NCBI RefSeq assembly: GCF_003946405.1
Contig: NZ_RHOG01000034.1
Coordinates: 1 to 32,702, forward strand
Length of the DNA stretch: 32,702 nucleotides
Source of the DNA: Lacticaseibacillus yichunensis
GTDB lineage: Bacteria; Bacillota; Bacilli; Lactobacillales; Lactobacillaceae
Reading direction: 5' to 3'
Shown here: one piece after another, positions 5,503-23,922 of the stretch
Layout: every line of letters begins with the position of its first letter
Position numbering within the stretch: position 1 is the first letter of the stretch
Program-made: the position numbers and the translations under genes
The notes under the pieces: generated by a model
The model's database searches: none
What the model was told of the DNA's origin: nothing
Seen by the model: the letters and a program-made list of their open reading frames with translations, nothing else

Positions 5503-5620
5503 GTCGGGCTCCGGTCCGCATGGTGGAAGCATCTAACTGGCTCGTGCGTTTGAGGCGAAGTGCGCCTCAATCACCCGAGCCAAGTTAGCTGTTCCACCAT
5601 AAACGCGGACCTCCGCACCC
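5503..5620 (+). repeat. Structured palindromic repeat, copy A
   Basis: This 118-bp unit begins GTCGGGCT and ends CTCCGCACCC, and folds on itself almost end to end. Nested arms are GGTCCGC/GCGGACC, GGTGGAA/TTCCACC, CTAACT/AGTTAG, GGCTCG/CGAGCC and, at the tip, TTGAGGC/GCCTCAA. Related units lie at 5628-5747, 7801-7918 (reverse) and 23807-23922. It holds no open frame with a start signal. It lies in the convergent gap between the permease and the minus-strand oxidoreductase. Confidence 0.85.
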
Positions 5621-5627
5621 TGTCATT

Positions 5628-5747
5628 GTCGGGCTGCGGTCCGCATGGTGGGGACATCTAGGCGTCTCCTGCACTCGATGGCCAAATGCGCCATCAAGCG
5701 CATGAGCCGACCTAGCTGCCCCACCATAAACGCGGACCTCCGCACCC
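5628..5747 (+). repeat. Structured palindromic repeat, copy B
   Basis: This is a second unit in direct tandem, 125 bp after copy A. Both ends are nearly identical to A (GTCGGGCT, GGTCCGCATGGTGG, CCACCATAAACGCGGACC, CTCCGCACCC), but the inner stems differ with pairing kept: GGTGGGG/CCCCACC, CTAGG/CCTAG and GATGGC/GCCATC replace the corresponding A pairs. Such compensated change suggests the fold, not the letters, is what is conserved. It ends 6 bases before the oxidoreductase stop codon and may also serve as its 3' hairpin. Confidence 0.85.
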
Positions 5748-5753
5748 TTTTCC

Positions 5754-6392
5754 TCACGCATTCACGACTGTAAATCGCTTATGCAGAAACTCTGGGTCTT
5801 CCATTTCATCGAGTAACGCGCTTGCCAGGTTGCCGGTGGAGACCACCGATTTGCCGTCCGCGTCCAGCATTAACTCATCCGTGCCGATACGATATTTCGT
5901 CTTTGGCCCCGGCACGAAGGAAAATTGGGGCGAGACTGCGGTCCACTTCACATTGTCGATCCACTGTAAAAACTGGTACTCGTGGAATTGCTGATGCGGC
6001 GTTTCGACCCAATCCGCGCCCGCATTTTTCGCCAGCACCTCATCGATCACATAACTGCCATCCGCCTGCTTCAACGAGCTGGCGCCGAGAATGAAATACA
6101 GCGTCGTCGTGGTGTTGCCGCGCAGCGCTGCCACCAGCCGCGCCGCCAGATCGACGTGCTGATACGCGGCCGCGCGCGTGGCAAACGCATCGACCACCGC
6201 ATCGTAATCAGTCAAGTCGGCGGCGGTCAACGCCAACGCATCTTTTTCAACGATCGTCACCCGCTCGTCAAACATCTCCTGCGCTTTGGCGGCGTTGCGC
6301 ACCAATGCCGTCACCTGATGGCCGCGACTTTGCGCTTCTTGAACAATGGCACTGCCGGCATGGCCGGTCGCGCCGATCACTGCGATCTTCAT
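5754..6392 (-). CDS. NAD(P)-binding oxidoreductase (NmrA/YwnB-like)
   Basis: This 212-residue protein has a Rossmann fold of the atypical short-chain dehydrogenase/NmrA group, starting MKIAVIGATGHAGSAIV with the glycine-rich GATGHAG dinucleotide motif. It continues with the TALVRN strand that contacts the cofactor phosphate and the DYDAVVDAF strand. It lacks the YxxxK catalytic pair of classical SDRs in an obvious place, so it may act as a quinone or flavin-type reductase or a redox sensor; the substrate is unknown. GAGGAGTGAGGAAGG precedes the start at 6392. It shares the family, but not the operon, with the genes at 19965 and 30604. Confidence 0.85.
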   Translation of the reverse strand: MKIAVIGATGHAGSAIVQEAQSRGHQVTALVRNAAKAQEMFDERVTIVEKDALALTAADLTDYDAVVDAFATRAAAYQHVDLAARLVAALRGNTTTTLYFILGASSLKQADGSYVIDEVLAKNAGADWVETPHQQFHEYQFLQWIDNVKWTAVSPQFSFVPGPKTKYRIGTDELMLDADGKSVVSTGNLASALLDEMEDPEFLHKRFTVVNA

Positions 6393-6584
6393 CCTTCCTC
6401 ACTCCTCTTCGTTTAGGTCGCCTTTACAATAACACGTTTACGCAATCGTTACTATCGAAAAATAAGCAATTACTGAGACACACACCCTGCTTTGGGCTGA
6501 CAAAATCGTCACGCAACTTCGGTCCGCAGACTGAACGCCGTACTAACCCCTTTCGCTATACTAAAACCAAAAGGAGTGAGAAAA

Positions 6585-6758
6585 ATGAAATTTCGTCGTT
6601 CTTCGAGTGATCACGTGATCGCCGGCGTCTGCGGGGCCATCGGACAACGGCTTGGCATCGATCCGCTATGGGTGCGGCTAGTCTTTGTTTTTGGCAGCGG
6701 CGCGTTCTTCTGGGTCTACCTCGCACTATGGGCCCTGACGCCGCTGGATAATGAGTAA
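6585..6758 (+). CDS. Small PspC-domain membrane protein
   Basis: This 57-residue protein is almost entirely one PspC domain: a basic N-terminus (MKFRRSSSDHVIAGVCGAIG), then LGIDPLWVRLVFV and a hydrophobic segment rich in aromatic residues ending in ALWALTPLDNE. PspC-type proteins sit in the membrane and are linked to envelope-stress sensing. Stand-alone short forms are common in lactobacilli and their exact role is unclear. AAGGAGTGAG lies 6-7 bases before the ATG at 6585; an in-frame GTG at 6576 overlaps that ribosome site and is unlikely. A TATACT -10-like element precedes it. A strong terminator follows. Confidence 0.88.
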   Translation: MKFRRSSSDHVIAGVCGAIGQRLGIDPLWVRLVFVFGSGAFFWVYLALWALTPLDNE

Positions 6759-6794
6759 GTCCATCCGAACCGCAACCACCAAAGCTGAGCCAAG

Positions 6795-6830
6795 CAGGGC
6801 GCCGAGAAAATTTCTCGGCGCCCTGTTTTT
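6795..6830 (+). terminator. Terminator after the PspC gene
   Basis: CAGGGCGCCGAGAAA and TTTCTCGGCGCCCTG form a perfect 15-bp inverted repeat (6795-6825) followed by five T residues. It ends 18 bases before the convergent PPK2 gene. Confidence 0.92.
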
Positions 6831-6848
6831 ATCGACTCAGTCAGCTAC

Positions 6849-7730
6849 TTATTTGTCCGTCAATTCTTCTAAAGCGGCCTGTAAGCCAGCCTTTTGCTCG
6901 GTGGTGACCGTTGGAAACGCCAGCGGCAGATCATCCAACCGCTTGTCGATCATCTTAGACACCAAAAGTCGGGCAAACCACTTGTTGTCCGCCGGAATAA
7001 TATGCCACGGAGCGTTGGCCGTCGACGTGTTGGCGATCGCGTCTTCGTAGGCATGCTGATAGTCGTCCCAGTAGCGGCGCTCCTTGATGTCCGCGGCCGA
7101 GAACTTCCAATTTTTATCCGGCTGATTGATGCGATCCAGGAATCGCTTCTTCTGCTCACCCTTGGACAGATGCAGGAAAAACTTCATCACAATGATGCCG
7201 TTTCGCGTCGCATAATTTTCCATCTGGCGAAAATCCTTGTAGCGCCGGTTCCACAGATCCTGTGTCACATCCTCGACCGTCCGGATGCCCGGAATGTGCT
7301 CCTTGAGCAAATTCTCCGGATGCACGCGATCGACCAGCACCTCTTCGTAATGGGAGCGGTTGAACACGGTGATGTTGCCGGCGCGCGGAAACGCCACGCG
7401 GGTGCGCCACAGATAATCATGGTCCAACTCGTCGAGGCTTGGCTGCTTGAACGAGATAACTTCGGTGCCTTGCGGATTGATGCCGGTCATCACATGCCGG
7501 ATCATGCCATCTTTGCCGGCTGCGTCCATGCCTTGGAAAATCAGGAGCAAACTGTATTCATTTTGCGCATAAAGCATCGCCTGGTCTTGAACCAGCTCGG
7601 CGATATCCTTGGCGATCGACGCCTTGATGTCAGCCTGGCTGAGATCGCGGTAGGCCTTTGGCACATCGGTCGCCCAGTCCTTGAGCTTAAAGTCACCTTT
7701 ACCAGCGTAAATAAAGTCATTCACATCCAT
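6849..7730 (-). CDS. ppk2: Polyphosphate kinase 2 family protein
   Basis: This 293-residue protein is a PPK2-family enzyme that transfers phosphate between polyphosphate and nucleotides. The Walker A motif GMDAAGKDG is at about residues 67-75. IRHVMTGINPQG, the Walker B-region FNRSHYEEVLVDRVHPE and a lid-type RRYWDDY segment follow, all standard for the family. The length suits a single-domain PPK2, and the subclass (AMP, ADP or broad nucleotide use) cannot be set by eye. I chose ATG 7730 because GGAGGT (7738-7743) is 7 bases upstream; an in-frame start at 7745 would overlap that site. A perfect TATAAT lies upstream at 7758-7763. Confidence 0.92.
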   Translation of the reverse strand: MDVNDFIYAGKGDFKLKDWATDVPKAYRDLSQADIKASIAKDIAELVQDQAMLYAQNEYSLLLIFQGMDAAGKDGMIRHVMTGINPQGTEVISFKQPSLDELDHDYLWRTRVAFPRAGNITVFNRSHYEEVLVDRVHPENLLKEHIPGIRTVEDVTQDLWNRRYKDFRQMENYATRNGIIVMKFFLHLSKGEQKKRFLDRINQPDKNWKFSAADIKERRYWDDYQHAYEDAIANTSTANAPWHIIPADNKWFARLLVSKMIDKRLDDLPLAFPTVTTEQKAGLQAALEELTDK

Positions 7731-7757
7731 TATCAGCACCTCCATTAAGTTGTTTTC

Positions 7758-7763
7758 ATTATA
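7758..7763 (-). promoter_or_regulatory. -10 element of the PPK2 promoter
   Basis: A perfect TATAAT on the minus strand lies 27 bases before the start codon. No clear -35 box is seen at 17 bp. Repeat copy C lies just upstream, outside the expected transcript. Confidence 0.5.
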
Positions 7764-7800
7764 TAAGACGAGCGCCCCTCAACGCTAAGATAATGTCTCA

Positions 7801-7918
7801 GGGTGTGTAGGTGCGCGCTTATGGACGTGCGGCTAACTTGGCCTGGGTGCGTTTGGCGCACTTCGCCAGACGTGCACAGACCAGTTAGACGTCGCGGCCA
7901 TGCGCACCGAAACCCAAC
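7801..7918 (-). repeat. Structured palindromic repeat, copy C (reverse orientation)
   Basis: Compared with the reverse complement of copy A this 118-bp unit matches at both ends (GGGTGTGTAGGTGCGCG versus GGGTGCGGAGGTCCGCG, and CCATGCGCACC versus CCATGCGGACC) and at the core (GCTAACTTGGC, GGCGCACTTCGCC, CAGTTAGA). The outer stem is GGTGCGC/GCGCACC and the tip TTTGGCG/CGCCAGA, both paired although they differ from A. A separate short hairpin, GCCCGC/GCGGGC, follows at 7931-7961 next to the ribbon-helix-helix gene. Confidence 0.8.
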
Positions 7919-7975
7919 TACGGTATAGCTGCCCGCATATAGGCGTGCGAGTACAGCGGGCCTCATCGCGCGCCT

Positions 7976-8149
7976 TCAGTCGTTGCAGTCATCCTCCAGC
8001 GCAAAATCGCGTGCACGTTGTTCCTCGATGAAGTAAGCCGTCAGCGCGCGACTGACCACCGCATCGACTGATTCATCCCCACGTTCGCAGGCCGCTTTGA
8101 GCTCGGCGGCCATTTCTGGTGTGAGTGTCACCGTTATTTTGTCTGCCAT
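7976..8149 (-). CDS. Ribbon-helix-helix (CopG/Arc-type) DNA-binding protein
   Basis: This short acidic protein of 57 residues has the ribbon-helix-helix layout: a basic beta strand (KITVTLTPEMAAEL), helix A and helix B (ESVDAVVSRALTAYF), then an acidic tail ending EDDCND. Such proteins are dimeric repressors or antitoxins. No toxin gene lies next to it, so a solitary regulator is as likely as an orphan antitoxin. GGAGGT sits 6 bases before ATG 8149, and a promoter is at 8177-8205. It is divergent from the DHA2 exporter at 8302, with the two promoters almost back to back, which makes that exporter a candidate target. Confidence 0.8.
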   Translation of the reverse strand: MADKITVTLTPEMAAELKAACERGDESVDAVVSRALTAYFIEEQRARDFALEDDCND

Positions 8150-8176
8150 TTTGCACCTCCGTCTTTGAATACGCTC

Positions 8177-8205
8177 ATTGTAGAGTGCTTCGCCGGGAAA
8201 CACAA
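8177..8205 (-). promoter_or_regulatory. Promoter of the ribbon-helix-helix gene
   Basis: TTGTGT (8200-8205) and TACAAT (8177-8182) are 17 bp apart on the minus strand. Confidence 0.6.
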
Positions 8206-8216
8206 ACGCCCCCTGC

Positions 8217-8245
8217 TTGATATTTTCTGAAAACAAGTCTAATGT
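8217..8245 (+). promoter_or_regulatory. Candidate promoter and operator of the second DHA2 exporter
   Basis: TTGATA (8217-8222) and TAATGT (8240-8245) are 17 bp apart. The spacer holds an imperfect inverted repeat: CTTG..TTTTC and GAAAACAAG around a single central T (8216-8238). This would suit a repressor bound on the promoter, possibly the adjacent ribbon-helix-helix protein. Confidence 0.45.
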
Positions 8246-8301
8246 AGCCTCTTGTGCGCGGCCCTATTTTCACGGTCTGGCGCGCGAAGGAGGAACCCTT
8301 A

Positions 8302-9684
8302 GTGGCAACAAGTAAGACCCAGACGAAGCCGATGATAGTCGTGACCGTAGTGGCGCTCATGTCCTTTCTTGGCGTGCTTACGGAAACATCGATGAATACG
8401 ACGTTTCCCACGCTGATGAAAGATTTTCAGGTCTCCCTTACCGCGGTGCAATGGGTGACCTCGGGGTATCTGTTATGTGCGGCGCTGGTGATGTTGACGT
8501 CGGCGTTTATGAAGCGGCGGTTCACCAACCGGACCTTGTTCACCTGGGCTGCCGCCTTGTTTATCGCAGGCGACCTCCTGTGCGCGACCGCGACAATTTT
8601 TCCGCAATTATTGGTGGGCCGGCTCGTGCAGGCAGGCTGCGTCGGGTTTTGCACACCACTGATGGTGAACATCATCATGGATGTCGTGCCCCGCAGCAAG
8701 CTCGGCACCTACCTCGGACTGGCCAATGTGATCATCTTGATTGCCCCGGCGCTTGGACCGACATTTGGTGGGGCCATCACCGCGTTTGCCAGCTGGCGCA
8801 TGATCTTTTGGCTGACGCTGCCCCTGGCTGTGATACTGTTGATCTGCGGGCAATTCTTGATCAAACAATACACAGCCACGAGCCGCTATGCGTTTGACTG
8901 GGCGCGATTTGCCCTGCTGGCCGCGGCGCTCACCAGCCTGATTATTGGGTTGACCGCGCTGGGCGATGGCAATTGGCTCTTGTTTGGCGGGCTGATGGTG
9001 GTGCTGGTGGCCAGCGCGATCGGTTTTGCGAAGCTGTCGAAAACAAGCACCCGCGCCCTATTTTCCCTGACCGTCTTTCACCAGCCGGCGTTTCTCTTCA
9101 GCTTTTTGCCGTACATCCTCCTGCAGTTCGCCAATGTCGGCATCAATTTTCTCCTGCCGAATTATGTGCAAGGCGTGTTCGCCGCGTCGTCGTTTGTCGG
9201 CGGTTTGGTGCTCCTGCCGGGAAGTATTTTCAACGGTCTCGGTCAGCCGCTGTATGGCTGGCTGCTGGACCGCTTCGGAGGCAAGGTGCCGCTGTATACC
9301 GGCGCCGCCTTGTTCACCCTGGCGCTTGGCGCAATGGCCGGCTGGGGCCCGCGGCTTGGCGTGGTCGGCATGACGCTGGCCTACCTGGTCTTTGCGATTG
9401 GCCGGTCGATGGCGTTTTCCAATAGTGTAGCGTATGGGTTGAAGAAAATGCCCAAGACGCTCCAAAGTGACGCCAACGCGCTTTACAACACGGGCCAGCA
9501 AGTCTCCGGCGCCATGGGAACCACCGTGCTGGCGCTTCTGATGACCAGCATCTCCCGGCCTGGCTGGCATCAGGCCCAGATCATCAGCGCCGGCAGCGCC
9601 TTGGCATTCGGCCTGCTGACGGCCTCGGGCGTCGTGATCTGGTGGCTGTTTGTCAAGTTGCTGCACGCCAAGACGGATTATTAA
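8302..9684 (+). CDS. DHA2-family MFS drug exporter (second copy)
   Basis: This hydrophobic 460-residue protein of about 14 membrane spans is a clear paralogue of the exporter at 1220-2605. It shares TTFPTLMKDF, AVQWVTSGYLL, the LLVGRLVQAGCVGFCTPLM region of TM4 and IAPALGPTFGG (antiporter motif C) of TM5. The start is GTG at 8302, with AGGAGG (8288-8293) 8 bases upstream; an upstream in-frame ATG at 8254 lacks such a site. The substrate is unknown. Its TM4 motif reads GRLVQAGCVGF rather than GRxxQGxGTG, so substrate handling may differ from the first paralogue. Confidence 0.9.
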   Translation: MATSKTQTKPMIVVTVVALMSFLGVLTETSMNTTFPTLMKDFQVSLTAVQWVTSGYLLCAALVMLTSAFMKRRFTNRTLFTWAAALFIAGDLLCATATIFPQLLVGRLVQAGCVGFCTPLMVNIIMDVVPRSKLGTYLGLANVIILIAPALGPTFGGAITAFASWRMIFWLTLPLAVILLICGQFLIKQYTATSRYAFDWARFALLAAALTSLIIGLTALGDGNWLLFGGLMVVLVASAIGFAKLSKTSTRALFSLTVFHQPAFLFSFLPYILLQFANVGINFLLPNYVQGVFAASSFVGGLVLLPGSIFNGLGQPLYGWLLDRFGGKVPLYTGAALFTLALGAMAGWGPRLGVVGMTLAYLVFAIGRSMAFSNSVAYGLKKMPKTLQSDANALYNTGQQVSGAMGTTVLALLMTSISRPGWHQAQIISAGSALAFGLLTASGVVIWWLFVKLLHAKTDY

Positions 9685-9692
9685 AGTAACCG

Positions 9693-9733
9693 AAAAGCCC
9701 CGGGTCGCACCGCCAATGCGGCCCGGGGCTTTT
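9693..9733. terminator. Bidirectional terminator between exporter and haem operon
   Basis: AAAAGCCCCGGG (9693-9704) and CCCGGGGCTTTT (9722-9733) form a perfect 12-bp stem with A and T runs on both sides. It can end both the plus-strand exporter (stop 9684) and the minus-strand ABC operon (stop 9743). Confidence 0.92.
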
Positions 9734-9742
9734 GGAATCCAG

Positions 9743-11338
9743 TTAGGAAACTGCGGCTACTTGCTGATCACTGAATCGATACAAGCGATCACACTGTGCC
9801 ACTGTTTCCGGCCGGTGCGTGATGATCAGCACCGCACCTTGAAACTCGCGCCGAACCACAGCCAGCAGCCGACTCATCGCTTCCGGGTCCTGAGTGGACG
9901 TCGGCTCGTCGAGAATCAGCAGCTGACTCGGCCGAAGCAGGGCCCGCGTCAGTTCAAGCCGCTGCGCCTGCCCAGTGGAAAATGGCAAGTGGTGCGGGTC
10001 GATCACAGTGTCCAACCCCGCCGGCAGCGTCGCCAGCCACTGCGCCAAGCCCAGCGACCCCAACCGCTCGCAGATCAACGCATCCGGTTGCGCCATCCCC
10101 AGCGTCAGATTGTCGCGCAGCGTTTCGTGGAAAAACACGGGGCGTTGCGGCATGTAATTGATGCGCCGCGGGTGGGCAGACACGCCCTCTTTTTCCGTGA
10201 CCACCAGCTGACCGATGTCTGGCGCAAACCAGCCCATCAGGAGTTTGGCCGCCGTGCTTTTGCCTGCCCCGCGGGCCCCGACAAAGCCGACGACCTCGCC
10301 CGCTTTGATCGAGACGGACACATCGCGCAACACCGCGCGCTCGGCGCCTGGGTAGGTGAACGACACATGCGCCAAGCTGATCGCCCAATCCGCTGAGGCA
10401 GCGGCCGGCGCCGCTTGGACAACTGGCTCGTGATGCGGCACCGGTGCTTGGGCCAATAGTGCCTGAATGTTGCGACCGGCATCCAGCCCGCGGCTCAGCG
10501 CCCCAGGCAGCCGGGCGAGGGCCTGGTGTGGGGCAAACAGCAGCGGAAAGCTCAACGCCAGCGCTATTGCATCAGGCGGGAGCAGCCAGGCGATCAGCGC
10601 CCAGCCGCCTGTCAACGCAAAAACCACCGCCAGCCGGTCCGAGTTTTGCAAGCGGTCGGCCGCCTGGCGCAACCGCCCGGCCTCGGCCAGTTGCGTCTGT
10701 GCGGCCGCCGCCCTGGCCTCCGTGATGCCAAGTTGGTCACTCAGCCGCCGATTTTCGCTAGACTCAAACACATATTGGCGCGTGGCCCGCTGTGACTCCG
10801 CCGCCTCCGCCGTCAATGAAGCGACACGGTCCGCGTGCCACAGAGGAATCGCGGCGCCCACCACAAGCGCCACCAGCAACACGGCCAGGGCCGCGACCGG
10901 ACTGACGGTCAGGAATACCACACACAGGCACGCGGTATAGACGACCGCGATTGCCAGCGGCCCCAGTGTGTGGGCGAAAAAGACTTCCAGCGCCTCAATG
11001 TCACCGCCGATCAGCTGGAGCCAGCGGCCACTTTCCTGCTGGTCAAGACCGGCCGGCGCAAGCGTCACCAGATGATCGAAGACACGGACCCGCAAATTTT
11101 TCAAAATGCGAAACGCGACATCATGCCCAAAATACTGCTCCCCATAACTGGCCACCGCCGCGACCAGCACCGCGAGGCCACCGATCAGCCACCCGCGCGC
11201 GCTGAGCCCGCCGATCACACCCTGCGCCGCCAGCACGATCACCGCTGTTTTTGCCAAGGCCCCGGCCAAGCCGCAACCGGCACTCAATAACCAGCGTCCC
11301 CGCAGCGGTTTCACCAATTCCAGTAGAAATGCCCCCAT
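9743..11338 (-). CDS. ABC exporter-type half-transporter, CydC/CydD-like (second of pair)
   Basis: This 531-residue protein has an N-terminal six-span membrane domain and a C-terminal ATPase. It carries Walker A GARGAGKST, a Q-loop in NYMPQRPVFF, signature FSTGQAQRLELTRALL (a variant of LSGGQ), Walker B LLILDEPTS and the H-loop His in IITHRPE. It is the last gene of the haem operon, and its ATG shares one base (11338) with the TGA of the gene before, so the two are coupled and probably form a heterodimer. CydCD exports cysteine/glutathione and is needed for cytochrome bd assembly. Exporter-fold siderophore importers (YbtPQ-like) look similar, so direction and cargo remain open. Confidence 0.85.
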   Translation of the reverse strand: MGAFLLELVKPLRGRWLLSAGCGLAGALAKTAVIVLAAQGVIGGLSARGWLIGGLAVLVAAVASYGEQYFGHDVAFRILKNLRVRVFDHLVTLAPAGLDQQESGRWLQLIGGDIEALEVFFAHTLGPLAIAVVYTACLCVVFLTVSPVAALAVLLVALVVGAAIPLWHADRVASLTAEAAESQRATRQYVFESSENRRLSDQLGITEARAAAAQTQLAEAGRLRQAADRLQNSDRLAVVFALTGGWALIAWLLPPDAIALALSFPLLFAPHQALARLPGALSRGLDAGRNIQALLAQAPVPHHEPVVQAAPAAASADWAISLAHVSFTYPGAERAVLRDVSVSIKAGEVVGFVGARGAGKSTAAKLLMGWFAPDIGQLVVTEKEGVSAHPRRINYMPQRPVFFHETLRDNLTLGMAQPDALICERLGSLGLAQWLATLPAGLDTVIDPHHLPFSTGQAQRLELTRALLRPSQLLILDEPTSTQDPEAMSRLLAVVRREFQGAVLIITHRPETVAQCDRLYRFSDQQVAAVS

Positions 11339-12903
11339 CAGCGGCCTCCCTTCAACGTCAACTGGCCGCCCAGTTGATAGACCTTCGCCGCATGCGCCTG
11401 CACCAATGGATCGTGGCTGACCCACAAAATCAGATGCGAGCGGCTAAGTGCACCCACCACGTCCAGCAAATGCTTCGTCGTCCGCCGATCGACGCTGGTG
11501 GTGATCTCATCCAGCAGGTACACCGGTTTGTCCGTCAGCAATAGCATCGCCAACGCCAATTCCTGGCGCTGGCCGGGCGAAAGTCGCCGCCCATTTTCAC
11601 CGATCACGGTGTTCCAGCCAGCCGGCAGGTCGCGGATAAAGGCAAGCAGTTGCCACTTCGCAAGAAAGGCCTTGCGCCGCGCGTCATCCGGACAGGCCAG
11701 CTTCAGATTGCTAGCGATCGTACCACTGAACAGTTGCGGCGAAGGCCCCAGCGTGCCGATGACAGACGCCCGCTTTTTTGCCGAAAATTGGGCCAGGTCC
11801 TGGCCATCCAGCAGAATCGCCCCTCGTGCAGGCTCGCGCGACCCATTGATCAGATTCACCAGCGTCGTCTTACCGCTACCGTTCGCCCCGCACAAAACGG
11901 TCAGCCCACCCGGCGCAAGCGTGAGTGACACATTTTTGAACACCGACCGGTCGGCATAAGCGGCCGCACAATCACGCACGGTCAGCTGCTGGGGATGAGC
12001 CGGCAAGTCAGCTTCAACTCGCGGCGCCGTCTCGAGCATGCCAAACACCCCGCGCAACGCCGGCCGCTGGCTTTTGATGCCATGGGAGAAATACCCGAGC
12101 TGTCGCCCATTGAGCATCAACGTGGCCAAGGTCACAAAGGCCGCGGCCCGGCCGCCCAGTGGCCCACGCAAGGTCAGCGGCGCCAGCAGAACCGTCAGAT
12201 AGACCAGCCCATTGATCGCGATCAGCGAGGTAAGCTGCGTTTGCAGAACTCGCATCGTCGCGTGGCGAAACCGCTCACTTTGCGAAGCGAAACGCTGGGC
12301 AAACAGCGGCCCGGCCTCATAGCTGACCAGCATCGTCAAGCCGCCAAGCGTGTCCAAAAACGATTGGCCCAGTGCCACAAATCGGTGCATGCATTCCCGG
12401 TCGCGCCGACTCACCCGCCTGGCCAGCGCCCGCAACACGATGGCCACCACCGCCAGACAGCCAAGGGGCAAAATGGCGACCAAGCTATGTTGCCACAGCG
12501 AAAGCCCCGCCAGCAACACCCAGCTCGCCCCCACCCCCAAAACAGCGGGCACGAGCACATTGTAAAACCCTGCGCCTTTATCGATCGCTGTCAGATCCCG
12601 TTGCAGCGTCGTACCTGCATCCGGGACGCTGGCCTCGGCGCGCCTGGCCAAGGCCGCCAGATACGCGCCATGAAGTTGCGCCGTGGCGGCCAAGCCCCAG
12701 GCGTGAAAATGCCCCCGCGCCGTCAGCCAACTGCCAAGCGCAGCGCATGCGACCACTACGCCGCCCGCCCAGATCAGCTGACGCGTCTGGCCGATCAGCC
12801 CGGCGGCCAGCAGCGCCCAACCCAAATTCGGTAGCCAGCCCCACCCACTCTCGACGAGCGCGCGGCCGACCTGTTCTTTACCATAGTGAAATAACTGACT
12901 CAT
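11338..12903 (-). CDS. ABC exporter-type half-transporter, CydD/CydC-like (first of pair)
   Basis: This 521-residue protein is a membrane domain fused to an ATPase: Walker A GANGSGKTT, Q-loop GPSPQLFSGTI, signature LSPGQRQELALAML, Walker B VYLLDEITTS with its catalytic Glu, and H-loop WVSHDP. Both half-transporters keep all ATP-hydrolysis residues, so the dimer is not obviously one-sided. AAAGGAG precedes ATG 12903 and overlaps the 3' end of the upstream ATPase gene (stop at 12914), so the five genes read as one transcript. The placement directly behind haem uptake genes suggests a role in haem or thiol handling for respiration. Confidence 0.85.
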   Translation of the reverse strand: MSQLFHYGKEQVGRALVESGWGWLPNLGWALLAAGLIGQTRQLIWAGGVVVACAALGSWLTARGHFHAWGLAATAQLHGAYLAALARRAEASVPDAGTTLQRDLTAIDKGAGFYNVLVPAVLGVGASWVLLAGLSLWQHSLVAILPLGCLAVVAIVLRALARRVSRRDRECMHRFVALGQSFLDTLGGLTMLVSYEAGPLFAQRFASQSERFRHATMRVLQTQLTSLIAINGLVYLTVLLAPLTLRGPLGGRAAAFVTLATLMLNGRQLGYFSHGIKSQRPALRGVFGMLETAPRVEADLPAHPQQLTVRDCAAAYADRSVFKNVSLTLAPGGLTVLCGANGSGKTTLVNLINGSREPARGAILLDGQDLAQFSAKKRASVIGTLGPSPQLFSGTIASNLKLACPDDARRKAFLAKWQLLAFIRDLPAGWNTVIGENGRRLSPGQRQELALAMLLLTDKPVYLLDEITTSVDRRTTKHLLDVVGALSRSHLILWVSHDPLVQAHAAKVYQLGGQLTLKGGR

Positions 12904-12913
12904 CCTGTCTCCT

Positions 12914-15613: not shown

Positions 15614-15638
15614 TTTTGGTCCCTCCATCATTTTTAAT

Positions 15639-15661: not shown

Positions 15662-15672
15662 TGACGAGCCCA

Positions 15673-15701
15673 ATCTTACCGGGGGTGTGTCGCCCTGTCA
15701 A
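15673..15701 (-). promoter_or_regulatory. Promoter of the haem-uptake operon
   Basis: A perfect -35 TTGACA (15696-15701) and a -10 TAAGAT (15673-15678) are exactly 17 bp apart on the minus strand. This is the strongest promoter match in the window, consistent with a gene set held off by a repressor. Confidence 0.8.
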
Positions 15702-15936
15702 CCTGGTGGCTTCGCGGCTGCGCCACCCGCGCCGTCGTTTTAGTCATTTAACCACCTGATGGCCGCCTGTCTCGTTTGTTCGTCGTTATGGAAAAAAATA
15801 TTGTGCGAACGGTTTTTCTAGTGCTGAAGACAAAAATAGCCTGTGCCCTGTTGATGGGGTGAAATCAAATAATTTCCGGGCCCTGTTTCCGAGCCCAGAG
15901 ACCAAAATGGCCGCCTTTTTTTGCCGATTCAGTCGA
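15702..15936. other. Intergenic stretch between haem promoter and pepN terminator
   Basis: No gene is seen in these 235 bases, and no open frame has a ribosome site. A short hairpin GGTGGC/GCCACC lies near 15703-15726, immediately upstream of the -35 box. The rest is unremarkable, with some A/T tracts. Confidence 0.5.
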
Positions 15937-15971
15937 TAAAAAAAGAGCCAGGACATCACATCCCAGCTCTT
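15937..15971 (-). terminator. Terminator after pepN
   Basis: On the minus strand AAGAGCTGGGA, a 7-nt loop and TCCTGGCTCTT pair over 11 positions (two wobbles), followed by a T-run. It begins 15 bases after the pepN stop. Confidence 0.9.
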
Positions 15972-15985
15972 GAAAAATATTAGGT

Positions 15986-18511: not shown

Positions 18512-18542
18512 TTTTCTCCCTCCGGCTCTTCAGATTACTCTC

Positions 18543-18548
18543 AGTATA
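18543..18548 (-). promoter_or_regulatory. -10 element of the pepN promoter
   Basis: TATACT on the minus strand lies 31 bases before the pepN start. The -35 region 16-17 bp upstream is poor (TTTTCG). Confidence 0.45.
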
Positions 18549-18674
18549 CGCCATTGCGCCCGTGCGAAAAGCAGGCGTCGCGCATTCTGGCCGAAAATTC
18601 AAAGTGACCTGCCTCTTTTGCGCAAAGCAACAACGTGCCTCAGCAAAATTAACAAATTTTTTTGTAGTAATATG

Positions 18675-18703
18675 CTGACACCGGTGTCATTAAAGCGTAT
18701 ACT
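18675..18703 (+). promoter_or_regulatory. Promoter of the ECF S-component gene
   Basis: CTGACA (18675-18680) and TATACT (18698-18703) are 17 bp apart. The -35 box is inside operator copy 1. Confidence 0.7.
18676..18689. promoter_or_regulatory. Operator copy 1 before the ECF S component
   Basis: TGACAC-CG-GTGTCA is a perfect palindrome overlapping the -35 box. A matching site lies 39 bp further on, centre to centre. Confidence 0.75.
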
Positions 18704-18713
18704 TCAGCTTGAA

Positions 18714-18729
18714 ATGACACGTGTGTCAT
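18714..18729. promoter_or_regulatory. Operator copy 2 before the ECF S component
   Basis: ATGACAC-GT-GTGTCAT has the same TGACAC half-site and 2-bp centre as copy 1 and lies just after the expected transcription start. Two matching sites around one promoter point to a dimeric, TetR-like or similar repressor. The regulator is not identified. Confidence 0.75.
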
Positions 18730-18754
18730 TAATTTGAAAGAGCAGGTGAAACAG

Positions 18755-19396
18755 ATGAAGAATCATTCAAAAGCGTTCCGTCTTGCGATTCAGGCCTTGT
18801 TTGTCGCGCTGATCGCCGTTCAGACGATGGTGCCATGGCTCGGCTACATCCCACTTGGGTTTCTTTCCATTACGATCATTCACATCACGGTGATCGTCGG
18901 CGCGATCATGTTCGGACCGGGGGAAGGCATGGTGATCGGCTTCACCTGGGGCCTGTTCAGTCTGATTCGCGCCTACACCGCGCCATCCAGTCCACTGGAT
19001 ACGCTCGCCTTCACGAATCCGCTGGTCTCCGTGGTGCCCCGGATCTTGATCGGGCTGTTTGCCGCATGGACCTTCTGGGCGCTGTTCAAGCTGACCCATC
19101 GCCAGCTCGTGGCCAGCATTGGCGCCGCGATCATCGGCACCGCGACCAATACGGTGTTGGTGCTCGGGGCAATGGGGCTGATCTATTCCGGCCAGGTCGC
19201 GAACTTCTATAACGTCTCCAGCGGCAACTTGATCAAAGTGCTGGTTGGCATCGTGATCTCCAACGGCATCCCCGAAATGATCGGCGCAATCATCCTCACC
19301 CCGCTTCTGGTGCGGGTCCTGACGACCGCGACCCACATGATTCCGTGGCATGTCGCCGCGCTTGCGAAACCTGCACAGCTGGGCACACATAATTGA
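18755..19396 (+). CDS. ECF transporter S component, probably pantothenate (PanT-like)
   Basis: This 213-residue hydrophobic protein of about six spans is the substrate-binding subunit of an energy-coupling-factor vitamin importer, working with a shared EcfAA'T module encoded elsewhere. The signature stretch SITIIHITVIVGAIMFGPGE, followed by GLFSLIRAYTAPSSPLD, NPLVSVVPRILIGL and the C-terminal NGIPEMIGAIIL, recalls S components annotated as PanT. The ligand is inferred from that resemblance only; another vitamin is possible. ATG 18755 is preferred because AGGTG is 6-7 bases upstream; an in-frame TTG at 18734 has no ribosome site. Two operators flank its promoter and a terminator follows. Confidence 0.8.
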   Translation: MKNHSKAFRLAIQALFVALIAVQTMVPWLGYIPLGFLSITIIHITVIVGAIMFGPGEGMVIGFTWGLFSLIRAYTAPSSPLDTLAFTNPLVSVVPRILIGLFAAWTFWALFKLTHRQLVASIGAAIIGTATNTVLVLGAMGLIYSGQVANFYNVSSGNLIKVLVGIVISNGIPEMIGAIILTPLLVRVLTTATHMIPWHVAALAKPAQLGTHN

Positions 19397-19413
19397 GTCA
19401 TTTGAGAAGAATC

Positions 19414-19449
19414 GAAAAGCCGTCGAGCTCAAAAACTCGACGGCTTTTC
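19414..19449. terminator. Bidirectional terminator between the S component and rrf2
   Basis: GAAAAGCCGTCGAG (19414-19427) and CTCGACGGCTTTTC (19436-19449) form a perfect 14-bp stem flanked by A and T runs, serving the converging genes on both strands. Confidence 0.92.
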
Positions 19450-19468
19450 ATATGGCTTCGGCGGACGC

Positions 19469-19912
19469 TTATCGCGAAGTAGCGTCGCGCGCGGCTTCCC
19501 GCGTCAGAATCTCATCGATGATGCCTTGCAAGCTGATGCCAGCCATGGTCTGTTCAGCTTGCTTTTGAATCTGATCGTACACGCCATCCAGGGTCTGCTG
19601 GATATTGCCACCGACGATGCATTGGGGGTTCGTCTTGTCGTCGATATGCAGCAGTTGCTGGTTGTCTTCGGCGGCGCGGTAGATCATGAGGAGCGTGATC
19701 TCGCTGGCGGGCCGTGCAAGTTTGGGGTCGACTTTCCCTGGGGCGCTGGTCAACAGGCCAGCTTTGACCAACCGCGACATCAGGCGCCGCACGAGGCTTG
19801 GGTTTGATTCGATGCTGCTGGCGATCGCATTGCTTGACAGATCGCCATCTTGATAAATGTCGACATAGGCCAGCAGATGGACCGCATCGCTCAGCCGGTG
19901 TGAATATTTCAT
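19469..19912 (-). CDS. Rrf2-family transcriptional regulator
   Basis: This 147-residue winged-helix protein starts MKYSHRLSDAVHLLAY, has the Rrf2 recognition region SIESNPSLVRRLMSRLVKAGLL and the wing with KVDPKLARPASEITLL. Iron-sulphur Rrf2 proteins carry three clustered cysteines; here only Cys98 (NPQCIVGGNIQ) is present, so a cluster is unlikely and a YwnA-like or single-thiol redox sensor is more plausible. The start at 19912 has a purine-rich site (AAGGGGG) upstream. It lies 52 bp behind the NmrA-type oxidoreductase, its likely partner and target, but also has its own promoter at 19940-19968. Confidence 0.88.
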   Translation of the reverse strand: MKYSHRLSDAVHLLAYVDIYQDGDLSSNAIASSIESNPSLVRRLMSRLVKAGLLTSAPGKVDPKLARPASEITLLMIYRAAEDNQQLLHIDDKTNPQCIVGGNIQQTLDGVYDQIQKQAEQTMAGISLQGIIDEILTREAARDATSR

Positions 19913-19939
19913 TCGAATCGCCCCCTTGCCGTTGCGTTC

Positions 19940-19968
19940 AGTATACCGTTTTGCGAAGCCGCTGTCAG
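19940..19968 (-). promoter_or_regulatory. Internal promoter of rrf2
   Basis: CTGACA (19963-19968) and TATACT (19940-19945) are 17 bp apart on the minus strand. The -35 box overlaps the stop codon of the upstream oxidoreductase gene, so rrf2 can be made independently. Confidence 0.7.
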
Positions 19969-20819
19969 GCCGTGGCCAAAACAACCTTGATGGCATCGGC
20001 CAGTGAGGTCAGTGGACGGCCGAGCACCGTGGCCAGATCATCGGTCGTGCCGGCGAGTTGACCCTCGCGGATCAGCGTTTGAAACGAGGTGACGAGCGCC
20101 GCGGTGCCGGCATCCAGCCCAGCTTTTTCCAGTCCGGCTTGATAGGCAGCGTCATCAACGGCGACGACTTGCACGTTGCCATCGATGGCCGCGGCAAGAT
20201 CTGCGTAAGTCCGCGGCGCGCCGGAAAATTCATAGATGGCTTTTGGCGTCTGCGTCAAAAGGACCCGCACCGCGCCTTCTGCGTATTCGCGTTCGAGTGC
20301 CCAGCCCGCCTGGCCAGCACCGGCGGAATAAACAAACGGTTGGCCGGCCGCCCCGGCAGCAAGTGTCGCGGCTTCATTCTCAAGATACCAGTTGTTACGC
20401 AGGAAGCTATGCGCAAGGCCGGCGTCTTCGATCATCTTTTCCGTGGCGCGGTGATCGGCGGCCAGTGGCGTGGTCGACGTGTCCGCATGCGGAAAACTGG
20501 TGTAGGCGATGTACCCAACACCGGCCGCTTTCGCCGCGGTCACCACGTTTTGATGTTGCGCAGCGCGGGCAAGCTGGCCCCCTGGCTGAGATGAAATGAA
20601 GAGTAATTTGTCCACGCCCTGAAGCGCTGCCGTCAATGTGGCTGGCTGCTCATAATCCGCCTGGCGCACTGCCACGCCGGCCGGGACGAGTGCCGCGGCC
20701 TTTTCTGTGTTGCGGGCCAGCGCGATGATCGTCGCATCGGCCGGTGCCAACGCCTTGAGTTGCTTGATGGCGGCCTGGCCAAAATGACCGGTCGCACCTG
20801 TGATCGCATATGTTGTCAT
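19965..20819 (-). CDS. NmrA-family NAD(P)-dependent quinone oxidoreductase (QorB-like)
   Basis: This 284-residue protein starts MTTYAITGATGHFGQAAI with the NmrA-type GATGHFG dinucleotide motif. IALARN, LLFISSQPGGQ, YIAYTSFPHAD, HRATEKMIEDAGL and the FLRNNWYLEN segment follow, as in QorB (YtfG) and related quinone reductases. These enzymes reduce quinones with NADPH and protect against electrophiles. ATG 20819 lies 10 bases after AAGGAG, and a TTG three bases earlier is an alternative. It is upstream of rrf2 on the same strand, and repeated GTTAC/GTAAC half-sites lie in its promoter region. Confidence 0.88.
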   Translation of the reverse strand: MTTYAITGATGHFGQAAIKQLKALAPADATIIALARNTEKAAALVPAGVAVRQADYEQPATLTAALQGVDKLLFISSQPGGQLARAAQHQNVVTAAKAAGVGYIAYTSFPHADTSTTPLAADHRATEKMIEDAGLAHSFLRNNWYLENEAATLAAGAAGQPFVYSAGAGQAGWALEREYAEGAVRVLLTQTPKAIYEFSGAPRTYADLAAAIDGNVQVVAVDDAAYQAGLEKAGLDAGTAALVTSFQTLIREGQLAGTTDDLATVLGRPLTSLADAIKVVLATA

Positions 20820-20851
20820 CAATAAAGATCTCCTTTTTATGTGCCAATCAA

Positions 20852-20887
20852 GTTACTTTTAACGTAACCTGTTGTTTACATAGTAAC
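20852..20887. promoter_or_regulatory. Repeated GTTAC/GTAAC half-sites before qorB-like gene
   Basis: GTTAC (20852-20856) and GTAAC (20864-20868) form one inverted pair, and GTTTAC (20874-20879) with GTAAC (20883-20887) a weaker second. Such arrays suit an HxlR-, Rrf2- or MarR-type regulator. Which protein binds is unknown. Confidence 0.4.
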
Positions 20888-20973
20888 ACCATCAAAGAAG
20901 CCGTCAACCTGTATTTTTAAAAATCACAGACAGTGTGCACCAGATGCGCGCACCGCCACCCGTTTTTACGCAG

Positions 20974-21002
20974 AAAAAAAACCAACGTCGCCGCTGGTTT
21001 TT
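20974..21002 (-). terminator. Terminator after the third DHA2 exporter
   Basis: On the minus strand AACCAGC and GTTGGTT pair (one wobble) around a 6-nt loop, followed by a T-run. It begins 9 bases after the exporter stop. Confidence 0.85.
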
Positions 21003-21010
21003 CCGCAAAG

Positions 21011-22429
21011 CTATTCCCGCTGACCGGCCGGCGCCGCCTGGACCCGAAAGGCCATCAGAAAGCCCGCCGCCGCGATGATCAGGACAAACACGAACCCAGC
21101 ATGGATCCCGGCGTTCACCCCGGCCGCGCCAGTCTGCGCCGCCATCCCGCTTGCCAGCAAGCTCGTGGCGATCGCGGTCGCCAGCGCGCCGATGATCTGT
21201 TGAAGCGTGTTCAAGATTGCGCTACCATCTGCGCTGAGGCGACCCGGCAGGCTGTTCAGCCCGTATGTCTGCGCCGGCGACATCGCAAGCGGCGCGCCGA
21301 TCATCAAGACCACATGCCCCAGAATCAAGACCCAAAGTGGACTCGACCCGGTGCTACTCAGCAGGACCAGCACCCCGAGCGCCGCGATGAAAAAGCCAAT
21401 GCGTGCGGGCCATTTCGCCCCATAATTGTCATACAGTCGTCCGGCCACGCCGGAGACGACCGCGTTCACGATGCCACCTGGCAACATCGCGAGCCCCGTC
21501 ATCGCGATTGGCAGGCCGACCACGCGCTGCAGATACATCGGAAACAGATACATCGCGCTCAAGATCAGCCCGAAATCCAGCATCACCAAAACCGTCCCAG
21601 TGGTGAACCGCGCCGAACTGAAAACATGCAGATTGAGAATCGGCATCTCAAGCTGAAGCTGGCGGTGCGCATACGCAGCCAAGACGATCAGGCCGATCGC
21701 CAACGTGCCGAGAACCTTACCGGATAGCCAGCCGCTGTCCGAGGCCATCGAGGCGCCGAGCACGATCGCCGCAAAGCCGACCGTGCTTTCGCCGATCGAC
21801 AGCCAATCGATCGGCGTTTTCGTCTGTTGATAGACATTGTCCAGATACAGCGCGACAAAGCCAAACGCAATGAGCAAAAATGGCACCAGCACCCAGAAGA
21901 TCGCGTGCCAGGACGCCTTGGCCAGCAGTAGCCCGGTCAAGGTCGGGGCGATCGCCGGGGCAAACATGATGACCAGCGCCGCCAGCCCCATCACGGTGCC
22001 CAGTTGATGCGGCGCGACGATCTGCATCGCCACCGAAAACATCAGTGGCAACACCAGCCCCGTGCCGATGCCCTGAATCATCCGGCCAACCAGCAACACA
22101 GGAAAACTGGTGCTGGTCGCCGCGATCACCGCGCCCACGATGAAGGCACCAAGCGCCACCAAGACGATCTTTTTCGTCGTCGCCCATTTGGTCAATAGAC
22201 TCGATAGTGGCATGAAGATACCGATCACGAGCATGTACCCGGTGATCAGCCACTGCGCCGCCCCAGCCGTCACGCCAAGCGCGCTGGTGATCGTTGCCAG
22301 GGCGATGTTCAGCGAGGTCTCCGAGAACATCCCCACGAAGCTGCCGATCATCAAGCCGACCATCGCCAGCGCCGGATGTGCGACAATGACTCGCGCCCTT
22401 GAGAGTGCCTGAGATTGTGTGATTTCCAT
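21011..22429 (-). CDS. DHA2-family MFS drug exporter (third copy)
   Basis: This 472-residue protein is a DHA2 exporter of about 14 spans with AAQWLITGYMLVIGIFMPLSS, TM4 LLVGRMIQGIGTGLVLPLM, TM5 FAPAIAPTLTG (antiporter motif C) and the late segment LILGHVVLMIGAPLAMSP. It resembles the first exporter more than the second in TM4. The start at 22429 has a ribosome site (GGAAGGATGG) somewhat far upstream, and no better in-frame codon is nearby. A TTTTTGCGCAAAAA palindrome lies 29 bases upstream. No regulator gene is adjacent. Confidence 0.9.
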   Translation of the reverse strand: MEITQSQALSRARVIVAHPALAMVGLMIGSFVGMFSETSLNIALATITSALGVTAGAAQWLITGYMLVIGIFMPLSSLLTKWATTKKIVLVALGAFIVGAVIAATSTSFPVLLVGRMIQGIGTGLVLPLMFSVAMQIVAPHQLGTVMGLAALVIMFAPAIAPTLTGLLLAKASWHAIFWVLVPFLLIAFGFVALYLDNVYQQTKTPIDWLSIGESTVGFAAIVLGASMASDSGWLSGKVLGTLAIGLIVLAAYAHRQLQLEMPILNLHVFSSARFTTGTVLVMLDFGLILSAMYLFPMYLQRVVGLPIAMTGLAMLPGGIVNAVVSGVAGRLYDNYGAKWPARIGFFIAALGVLVLLSSTGSSPLWVLILGHVVLMIGAPLAMSPAQTYGLNSLPGRLSADGSAILNTLQQIIGALATAIATSLLASGMAAQTGAAGVNAGIHAGFVFVLIIAAAGFLMAFRVQAAPAGQRE

Positions 22430-22458
22430 AAAGAGAATGCCATCCTTCCATGCGCCTG

Positions 22459-22472
22459 TTTTTGCGCAAAAA
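22459..22472. promoter_or_regulatory. Palindrome before the third DHA2 exporter
   Basis: TTTTTGCGCAAAAA is a perfect 14-bp palindrome in the leader/promoter region of the exporter. It could be an operator; no clear promoter boxes could be assigned around it. Confidence 0.35.
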
Positions 22473-22628
22473 AATAGTCCAAAAATGGGCTACAGAGTTG
22501 AGTCGCTGCGCGAAAGCCATACCCAGCGACGATCCTATTCGGCCAGCGCACTGGGCGCCGGCATCATGTTGATCACCTTACCAGAAAAATTCGGGCGGCG
22601 TAAGCTTTTTTTCAGATAAGCGTTTGCG
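22473..22628. other. Remainder of the exporter-adh intergenic stretch
   Basis: No gene is seen. The only structure is a perfect GTCGCTG/CAGCGAC inverted repeat with a 15-nt loop (22502-22530), of unknown meaning. It lies upstream of the exporter and could belong to its promoter region. Confidence 0.4.
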
Positions 22629-22673
22629 GAAAAAAGTGGCCGGCGCACTCGACTTACTGCGCACGCCGGTCAC
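22629..22673 (-). terminator. Terminator after the alcohol dehydrogenase
   Basis: On the minus strand GTGACCGGCG and CGCCGGCCAC pair with one mismatch, extended inside by a partly complementary TGCGC stretch, and are followed by six T residues. It lies 59 bases after the adh stop. Confidence 0.75.
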
Positions 22674-22731
22674 TTCCTCCACGACTTACTTTGTCACGCC
22701 CGATTATCGAGCGCCTCGCTTTTTTCGCGAC

Positions 22732-23772
22732 CTACTTTGCCACGACCAGCAACGACTTGATCGCGGTGCGCTGGTCCATCGCCTCATAGGCATCCTGAAT
22801 CTGATTCAGGGCAAACCGCTTGGTGAACACTTTGCCCGGCTCGATCTTGTGATCCAAGACCGCCTGCAACAACACGTCGCGATCATAAGTCGTCACATTG
22901 GCAATCCCGCCGCGCAGGCCGACATTTTTCCAAAACAGGTCGTTCGTGTTCATTTCCGCTTTTTGCGGAATGCCAACGCGGCCCACCACGGCCCCGGCGC
23001 CGGCGACGCGCACCGCCGTTTGGACGGAGAGCTCGGTGCCGACACATTCCAGCACCGCATCCGCGCCGGCGCCATCGGTCAACGCCATCACTTCAGCCAC
23101 GGCATCATCGCCACGACTCGCCACAATATCCGTCGCGCCAAATTCACGGGCGAGCTTCTGGCGGTCTTCGTGGCGGCTCATCGCGATGATGCGCGTTGCC
23201 CCGCGCAACTTGGCGGCGATCACCCCGCACAACCCAACGGCCCCGTCACCCATCACGACTACGGTGTCGCCGGGCTTGACCTCAGCGCTGGCCGCCGCGT
23301 GATAGCCGGTCGCCATCACATCCGCCAGCGTGACGAAGGACTGCAACATCTCCTCCGAGTAATCGGCCGGCTGCCCCGGAATTTTCACCAGCGCCCAGTT
23401 GGCATTGGTGAAGCGCAGGTACTCGCCTTGATAACCGGGATTGGCGCCTGGCTCGCGGTTCATGCAATTGCCATCAAAGCCGGCGCGGCAGGCGGCACAA
23501 TGCCCGCAGCCGTGGGTGAATGGTGCGATGACAAAATCGCCAGGCGCCACCTGATGGACATCGCTGCCGACGGATTCAACGATGCCGATTGCCTCGTGGC
23601 CGACCGTGGTATCGGCGGGCCGCTGCTCGAGCCCGCGGAACCACCACAAGTCCGAGCCGCAGACACTGGCGCGCACGATCTTGATGATCGCATCCGTCGA
23701 TTTTTCGATCACGGGCTTGTCGCGGTCCTCGATCACGACTTGGCCCGGTTGTTTAAATACAGCAACTTTCAT
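22732..23772 (-). CDS. Zinc-dependent alcohol dehydrogenase family protein
   Basis: This 346-residue medium-chain dehydrogenase/reductase has catalytic-zinc residues Cys38 (VCGSD) and His59-Glu60 (GHEAIG). Four structural-zinc cysteines lie in CGHCAACRAGFDGNC (residues 89, 92, 95 and 103), and the coenzyme loop reads VMGDGAVGLCGVIAAK. It oxidises alcohols or reduces aldehydes with NAD(P). The substrate is not evident, though the PGANPGYQGEY segment recalls broad-specificity or tartronate/threonine-type members. GGAGGT is 9 bases before ATG 23772. Its leader contains repeat copy D, and a TGGTATAAT extended -10 lies beyond that copy. It may also be reached by read-through from the SDR operon upstream. 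Confidence 0.93.
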   Translation of the reverse strand: MKVAVFKQPGQVVIEDRDKPVIEKSTDAIIKIVRASVCGSDLWWFRGLEQRPADTTVGHEAIGIVESVGSDVHQVAPGDFVIAPFTHGCGHCAACRAGFDGNCMNREPGANPGYQGEYLRFTNANWALVKIPGQPADYSEEMLQSFVTLADVMATGYHAAASAEVKPGDTVVVMGDGAVGLCGVIAAKLRGATRIIAMSRHEDRQKLAREFGATDIVASRGDDAVAEVMALTDGAGADAVLECVGTELSVQTAVRVAGAGAVVGRVGIPQKAEMNTNDLFWKNVGLRGGIANVTTYDRDVLLQAVLDHKIEPGKVFTKRFALNQIQDAYEAMDQRTAIKSLLVVAK

Positions 23773-23806
23773 GGGGAAAAGACCTCCGATTTTAATTTCG
23801 ATAAGA

Positions 23807-23922
23807 GTCGGGCTACGCGGGGCGGGGCTGAGACGTCTAGCTGGCTCGTGCACTCGAGGCAAAGTGCGCCTCAAGCACCCGAGCCAAGCTACCCGCTCAC
23901 ACCTATACGCCCCGCGCCGCCC
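23807..23922 (+). repeat. Structured palindromic repeat, copy D
   Basis: This 116-bp unit matches copy A in GTCGGGCT at the left, CTGGCTCGTGC, the GAGGC-AAAGTGC-GCCTC tip and CACCCGAGCCAAG. Its outer stem is instead GCGGGGCG/CGCCCCGC and its middle stem GGGCTGAG with CTCACACC, so pairing is kept while sequence differs. It lies between the SDR stop and the adh start and would be transcribed, as its reverse complement, in the adh leader. Confidence 0.85.

Follow-up and report, generated by a model that had tools for sequence, protein, structure and literature searches.

The common picture of small palindromic repeats in bacteria is that of mini-transposons jumping to new sites. The stretch of DNA analysed here, 32,702 nucleotides of Lacticaseibacillus yichunensis (contig NZ_RHOG01000034.1, positions 1 to 32,702) and referred to below as the window, contains four copies of a palindromic repeat. 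When L. yichunensis was compared with its sister species L. mingshuiensis, the compared sites stayed whereas their contents turned over quickly between the species: units are gained and lost while the compared sites persist. At the same time, the end boxes and spacers of the units are site-specific and the cores are shared across sites, boxes and cores thus being inherited separately. Roughly one in two hairpins at the kept sites has been added, lost or replaced, an unusual mode of evolution for a bacterial repeat. We tentatively regard the family as genus-specific non-coding DNA-hairpin repeats between genes, that is, a selfish or structural repeat with fixed sites and recombining contents, a reading that we hold as a whole with slightly less than even confidence.

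Repeat units in the window and their anatomy

The four copies were found where the initial annotation had placed them, to within a few bases, and the arm pairs that it quoted are all present in the sequence. Its reading of the 5' end of copy C as GTCGGGCT was wrong, the actual letters being GTTGGGTT, and copy D shares the family ends only in part, since some of its 3' end box is absent. Copies A and B form a tandem pair, C is single and reversed, and D is single:

5487..5502, plus strand: leftover of an older unit at the left side, with the 3' box GCGGCACC and the spacer GTTTCATA (from sequence reading and the array-edge survey)
5503..5619, plus strand: unit A, with the 5' box at 5503-5512, the hairpin core and the 3' box at 5612-5619
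5620..5627, plus strand: spacer CTGTCATT between units A and B
5628..5746, plus strand: unit B, 95% identical to the L. mingshuiensis unit at the same place
7802..7918, minus strand: unit C, single, with the T/A variant of the end boxes, 97% identical to its L. mingshuiensis ortholog
23807..23920 (end approximate), plus strand: unit D, 3' box incomplete, 91% identical to its L. mingshuiensis ortholog

All four copies fold far better than expected from their composition. The folding z values against 200 dinucleotide shuffles were -8.84, -7.18, -4.55 and -5.51 for A, B, C and D, respectively, and for each copy none of the 200 shuffles folded as well. In copy C, the C-to-T change at the 5' end is matched by a G-to-A change at the other end (CACACC).

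A unit takes the form of an imperfect hairpin of 118 nt that consists of a 10-nt 5' box (GTYGGGYTNC), a core of about 100 nt and an 8-nt 3' box (TNCRCACC). The spacers measure 2-10 nt, the last spacer ends in A in 114 of the 115 readable cases (of 126 arrays), and CT follows the 3' box at the right edge of 116 of the 126 arrays. The end boxes pair with each other, GGGY of the 5' box with RC(A)CC of the 3' box, and vary together, so that terminal inverted repeats are present. At columns 7 and 118 of 244 units we counted CG 197 times, TA 38 times, TG eight times and TT once (Watson-Crick in 235 of 244), and where neighbouring units differ at these columns, the 3' box fits the 5' box of its own unit seven times and that of the next unit once. 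The corresponding counts in L. kribbianus were two and one; here the boxes change jointly between GGGC/GCCC and GAGC/GCTC (position 5/115: GC in 88 and AT in 11 of 102). In genome G014 the boxes are GCGC/GC(A)GC, as judged by eye, at four of five loci (L122, L127, L133 and L138), and L146 is of the usual type. A 3-bp duplication TNC...TNC flanking the core was considered and rejected, columns 9 and 116 agreeing in 92 of 244 units (0.38, with 0.42 expected by chance).

The apical loop is conserved, and so are several unpaired bases of the stem or loop (A19 in 65, T31 in 61, C82 in 62 and C63 in all of 66 copies). The units at 1671 and 1843 of locus L128 have the same extra hairpin-like stretch of about 50 bases in the 3' arm.

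Turnover of units at persisting sites

All three sites of the window are occupied in L. mingshuiensis, which has two further units. Unit A is without an ortholog at the same site of this species (best identity 75%), the L. mingshuiensis spacer in the place of the A/B spacer is CTGTCATA, and a second unit lies behind the ortholog of unit D.

The surroundings of the sites are about 92-94% identical between the two species, and in 25 orthologous array pairs 54 of the 109 full units were shared at ≥90% identity. Two-sided matches were obtained for 29 of 53 arrays of L. yichunensis and for 30 of 78 arrays of L. mingshuiensis; across the 59 two-sided comparisons, the other side carried units in 55 and a remnant only in 4. 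Most of the compared loci had been chosen through repeat matches, and only 12 comparisons, which cover 11 distinct sites because one was viewed from either species, and the three window sites were free of that choice on the compared side. Units were present in 8 of these 12 comparisons, one of them partial, and the other 4 displayed a lone 3'-box remnant, recognized by eye, with the same right flank. A clean empty site was encountered in none of the 12 comparisons at 11 sites.

In the two species together, 108 of 131 arrays either are preceded on the 5' side, at a distance of up to 18 nt, by a remnant that resembles a 3' box or start with a truncated unit (31 of the 108), as counted with a loose motif; the right edge is sharp. 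Internal deletions that leave joined boxes also occur, and some units have been lost by such box-to-box deletion. Replacement of a core in place was considered for six unit pairs with the same two-sided context, four of which had kept their core and two of which differed; it was not retained as a separate process.

End boxes and cores

The separate inheritance of boxes and cores became apparent from unit pairs of the same genome whose cores are less than 80% identical (147 pairs within arrays and 13308 between them). The first 10 and the last 8 letters were more alike within than between arrays, with an agreement of 0.80 versus 0.60 at column 3, 0.93 versus 0.69 at column 7 and 0.96 versus 0.74 at column 118. 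Columns 12-16 and 110-113 had little or no within-array excess (0.28-0.42 within versus 0.35-0.46 between), and a few nearly invariant inner columns had a nominal one. The pattern recurred in L. kribbianus (73 pairs within and 4412 between arrays), where the agreement was 0.97 versus 0.75 at position 5, 0.99 versus 0.72 at position 7 and 0.99 versus 0.78 at position 115. In addition, the spacers are mostly constant within one array.

As regards the cores, 64 unit pairs from different arrays of the same genome were ≥93% identical. Among units with cores ≥95% identical, the end letters differed between arrays by 0.132 at the 5' end and 0.118 at the 3' end (29 pairs), in comparison to 0.031 and 0.022 within arrays (27 pairs). 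One exchange has its breakpoint at the apex: compared with the sister species, two neighbouring units of L. yichunensis have swapped their 3' halves (L012 versus L052).

Copy number and distribution of the family

The initial annotation had described a four-copy family and had named a lack of further copies as a sign against it; many more were found. An iterative profile search of the window and 35 further stretches, 333 kb altogether, yielded 122 copies, 108 of them full length. A covariance model from an alignment of 66 copies was then run on the same genome, where all 150 candidates scored (of 1419) matched, and 69 of these matches start outside the 333 kb read, according to a script count. 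The 122 copies and the 69 matches elsewhere bring the family to at least 191 whole or partial copies in the L. yichunensis genome. When copy A was used as a BLAST query against this genome, 69 matches came up, and 40 of the 117 candidates of the first look were scored.

In a first run, the covariance model matched 22 of 25 Lacticaseibacillus genomes, the own genome included, and none of 16 genomes from other genera of the same order. When more candidates were scored in a second run, 28 of 30 genus genomes matched, G009 and G012 being those without a match; G019 had no match in the first run and two in the second. Several other genomes of the genus had more than 100 scored copies. An exact 26-letter apical probe detected 23 stretches of the genome collection, all from three Lacticaseibacillus species, in a search that misses species without the exact word and may leave out records near the window's own genome. 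Copy A had no match in the plasmid and phage collections.

The copies are single or lie in head-to-tail arrays of 2-6 units, in both orientations relative to the neighbouring genes. Their placement is intergenic: with genes predicted by a simple gene caller, an overlap of more than 20 bases with a predicted gene was seen for only 1 of the 123 arrays that have a predicted neighbour on both sides.

Pairing of the stems

The compensated changes at paired positions noticed by the initial annotation are genuine, and the covariation is still strong with 66 copies, so that its loss upon alignment of more copies, which that annotation had named as a sign against its view, did not occur. In this alignment, 92.9% of 2565 paired cells were standard, compared with 32-38% when the partner was slid by 1-3 columns, the structure having been derived in part from the same alignment, which favours a high pairing score. 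Two-sided changes were observed at 28 of the 39 pairs.

Such covariation could be left by selection on a structured RNA, for instance a regulatory leader, a terminator or a small RNA. A stem selected as RNA should contain more G·U than A·C mismatches, and the counting of both is a simple means to tell DNA from RNA covariation. In 240 distinct units, at the 35 well-supported pairs (four weakly supported pairs were left out), 7876 cells were Watson-Crick pairs; the remainder comprised 128 G·U, 138 A·C and 226 cells of other kinds. With all 39 pairs of the 66-copy alignment, the weak ones included, the numbers were 44 G·U and 83 A·C. In the control with 28 tRNAs from the same genomes (336 cells), 23 G·U stood against no A·C (Fisher p 1.5e-7); the stem register was the one with the largest number of standard pairs, a choice that biases the count toward G·U and against A·C. 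As G·U is no commoner than A·C in the repeats, unlike in the tRNAs, the covariation looks like DNA pairing and not like RNA selection. Judging from these stems, it is probably as DNA that the arms stay paired, unless copying from one arm to the other restores the pairs, and conserved mismatches weigh against a simple correction of one arm by the other. In L. kribbianus (L172-L191) the stems had 40 G·U and 81 A·C, the opposite of a signal from plus-strand RNA; this excess would point toward the other strand, and we offer no explanation for it.

The RNA reading, which the initial annotation had offered as one possibility, agrees with the strong stem covariation, with the conserved apical loop and with the T-rich sequence that often follows the 3' box. 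The mismatch counts and the occurrence of arrays in both orientations to neighbouring genes speak against it. A search of Rfam gave no match at the gathering threshold in the window, and the repeats of the window and of three loci attracted only sub-threshold models of microRNA and untranslated-region hairpins (E up to 5); the match to a known class that the initial annotation had counted as a further sign against its view did not appear among the Rfam families. We therefore consider a structured RNA family highly improbable.

Candidate agents of mobility and exchange

The initial annotation had also suggested a repeat resembling repetitive extragenic palindromic (REP) sequences or bacterial interspersed mosaic elements (BIMEs), moved by a transposase encoded elsewhere. 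The likeness holds in that the repeats are intergenic, palindromic and numerous; movement by such a transposase is not well supported. The Y1 tyrosine transposase typical of REPs (RAYT, PF01797) was detected in 13 of 30 genus genomes and was absent from G001, G006, G011 and G014, genomes with 56-147 scored copies. In addition, six Y1 loci (L084-L089, one of them from L. yichunensis) had no repeat within about 1.5 kb according to the profiles of two species. Since the presence of PF01797 does not track repeat copy number, a REP/RAYT system was rejected.

None of the 30 genus genomes had an integron integrase (TIGR02249) over the cut-off, and tyrosine recombinase matches weaker than that cut-off occurred in all 30. 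Cas1 (PF01867) is absent from the L. yichunensis genome and present in 15 of the 30 genomes. In genome G000, some 200 bases separate the array at C5:23209-23452 from a preceding tyrosine recombinase gene (C5:22193-22999) that does not reach the cut-off for integron integrases; this proximity is probably due to chance. No longer element with the same ends was evident by eye in 1.08 Mb of two genomes when a strict box motif was used; outside the units, this sequence contained six 5' boxes and 32 3' boxes. Thus, none of the agents of similar elements (Y1/RAYT, integron integrase, Cas1) fits, although no full scan for co-distributed recombinases was made. Loss of SbcCD was rejected as a reason for the tolerance of hairpins, SbcD being present in 30 of 30 genomes.

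These searches also bear on a cassette system, in which a site-specific recombinase would act on folded single-stranded hairpins and add cores at site-specific boxes, in the manner of integron attC sites or CRISPR adaptation. In a gene-free form, a structure-recognising recombinase would shuffle cores among a few hundred fixed box-marked sites, with boxes and spacer copied locally at each addition. The modularity of boxes and cores, with a sharp boundary near the hairpin base, would suit such a system, as would the conserved unpaired stem bases, the near constancy of spacers within an array and the A·C excess of L. kribbianus (81 versus 40 G·U), which would be understandable if G·T were better tolerated on the other strand. 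Against it stand the lack of an integrase over the cut-off together with the weaker recombinase matches, the patchy presence of Cas1, the exchange that sits at the apex and not at a box, and the absence of growth polarity along the arrays. We consider a cassette system, the gene-free form included, improbable.

A proposed reading: fixed sites with recombining contents

If the repeat is a DNA hairpin with fixed sites, arrays may lengthen and shorten through tandem duplication and slippage, and cores may be copied between arrays by structure-dependent recombination, for example by template switching during replication. The hairpin would form on a single strand and stall replication, and the short identical boxes would provide landing places. 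It would stay paired because it acts as DNA, either as a cruciform or as a single-strand hairpin, in the role of a selfish sequence spread by copying or of a site bound by a putative protein. The sites may first have been seeded by a transposase, perhaps an extinct or distant one. In favour of this reading are the covariation of the stems, the counts of G·U against A·C, the boxes that follow the site while cores are shared, the turnover of units at kept sites, the swapped 3' halves and the box-to-box deletions.

Several observations weigh against this reading. In the stretches fetched, 24 of the 53 arrays of L. yichunensis and 48 of the 78 arrays of L. mingshuiensis were without a two-sided match. 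No age gradient was detected along the arrays (p 0.095), and both unit pairs that differ in their cores can be read as gain or loss of a unit, so that neither was counted as replacement. Badly paired units (<75% Watson-Crick) exist, 4 of 244, which implies that mispaired stems are not removed immediately. Ordinary recombination by RecA needs more homology than boxes of 8-10 nt provide, and the template-switch step is therefore one that we infer. Finally, in the 25 of the 64 near-identical pairs that were displayed, the likeness (up to 99%) stops at the unit ends, and at least four leading bases of the spacer are identical to the right flank in 36 of 115 arrays, as opposed to 11.7 in shuffled data (maximum 24).

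The last two observations also fit enzymatic insertion with short target duplications, for which an unknown transposase could be responsible. The repeat would then be a non-autonomous element resembling miniature inverted-repeat transposable elements (MITEs), mobilized in trans and inserted beside existing copies, and the spacers would be short variable target duplications. Near-identical copies at different sites do share exact ends, spacer/right-flank identity is above the shuffled level, and both the high copy number and the intergenic placement are as such an element would have them. At the same time, no clean site was seen in the comparisons, the box letters track the site and not the core, the spacer length is not fixed, no longer element with the same ends was evident in the 1.08 Mb, and four high-copy genomes are without the Y1 transposase. 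On balance, we consider a MITE-like element rather unlikely.

The repeats represent a rich natural data set on whether palindromes are conserved by selection on DNA folding or by a copying mechanism, and on the persistence of long hairpins in the presence of SbcD, a nuclease that attacks hairpins.

Sequences beside the arrays

As beside a convergent terminator, five consecutive A residues occur no further than 20 nt from the right edge in part of the arrays of three species (6 of 52, 12 of 78 and 20 of 50), compared with 3.6, 3.6 and 1.4% of random positions. The right flank CTGAATCAAAAA is found at L012, L013, L044, L052, L058, L077 and L081, next to an array or to a remnant standing alone, as if one terminator type were a preferred neighbour. 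In the window, an inverted repeat at 5410-5467 (79% complementary, with perfect outer bases and with A- and T-runs) is probably a two-way terminator between the gene at 3945-5399 and the array.

Array orientation is consistent with GC skew for 39 of 53 arrays in L. yichunensis and for 50 of 78 in L. mingshuiensis, and with gene direction for 27 of 40 and 36 of 56, respectively. As sites are shared, skew was taken per locus and gene direction agrees as well, no conclusion was drawn from the orientation with respect to GC skew. At 32054-32113 of the window, an 18-base tandem repeat of 3.3 copies lies inside the open frame 31967-32611 (minus strand) and encodes a Ser/Glu-rich stretch.

Comparison with known systems

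Integron attC sites and the present repeats have several features in common: both are long hairpins of imperfect pairing in which certain unpaired bases are conserved and the paired ones vary, both have conserved end boxes, and both occur in arrays. The present repeats differ in lacking gene cassettes and an integrase over the cut-off in the 30 genomes, and in the order and sequence of the boxes.

RUP and other MITEs are described as non-coding, highly base-paired elements of about 107-120 bp (PMC3049150). As far as that description goes, the likeness lies in length, base-pairing and non-coding nature, whereas the repeats studied here are GC-rich, arrayed and found at shared sites, with no parent insertion sequence found in the 1.08 Mb searched.

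REPs are given as sequences of 20-40 bp with a GTAG-like (GTAG/CGTC-type) head, and RAYT genes as flanked by REPs (PMC2817692, PMC3733652). In the features that these accounts cover, REPs, BIMEs and REPINs share with our family the numerous extragenic palindromes, the compensated changes and the frequent arrangement in arrays. The differences are that the units here measure 118 nt and start with GTYGGG, that the arrays are head-to-tail, and that four high-copy species are without Y1.

The BOX elements of Streptococcus pneumoniae have the composition boxA-boxB(n)-boxC, with terminal inverted repeats and target duplications reported (PMC3049150). Set against this description, and not against BOX sequences, the present repeats are likewise from a Firmicute, intergenic, modular and stem-loop forming, with tandem central modules in variable number. 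They differ from BOX in genus and in plan: the end modules of BOX are separate and surround the boxB arrays, whereas here both boxes are in each full unit, the boxes are site-specific and the cores are shared across sites.

No recognisable description of such repeats in lactobacilli was found in the open-licence literature searched. In kind, BOX elements and REPINs come nearest to them. As the tested defining features of both fail and neither Rfam nor the literature provides a match, the hairpin repeat of Lacticaseibacillus is set apart from both.

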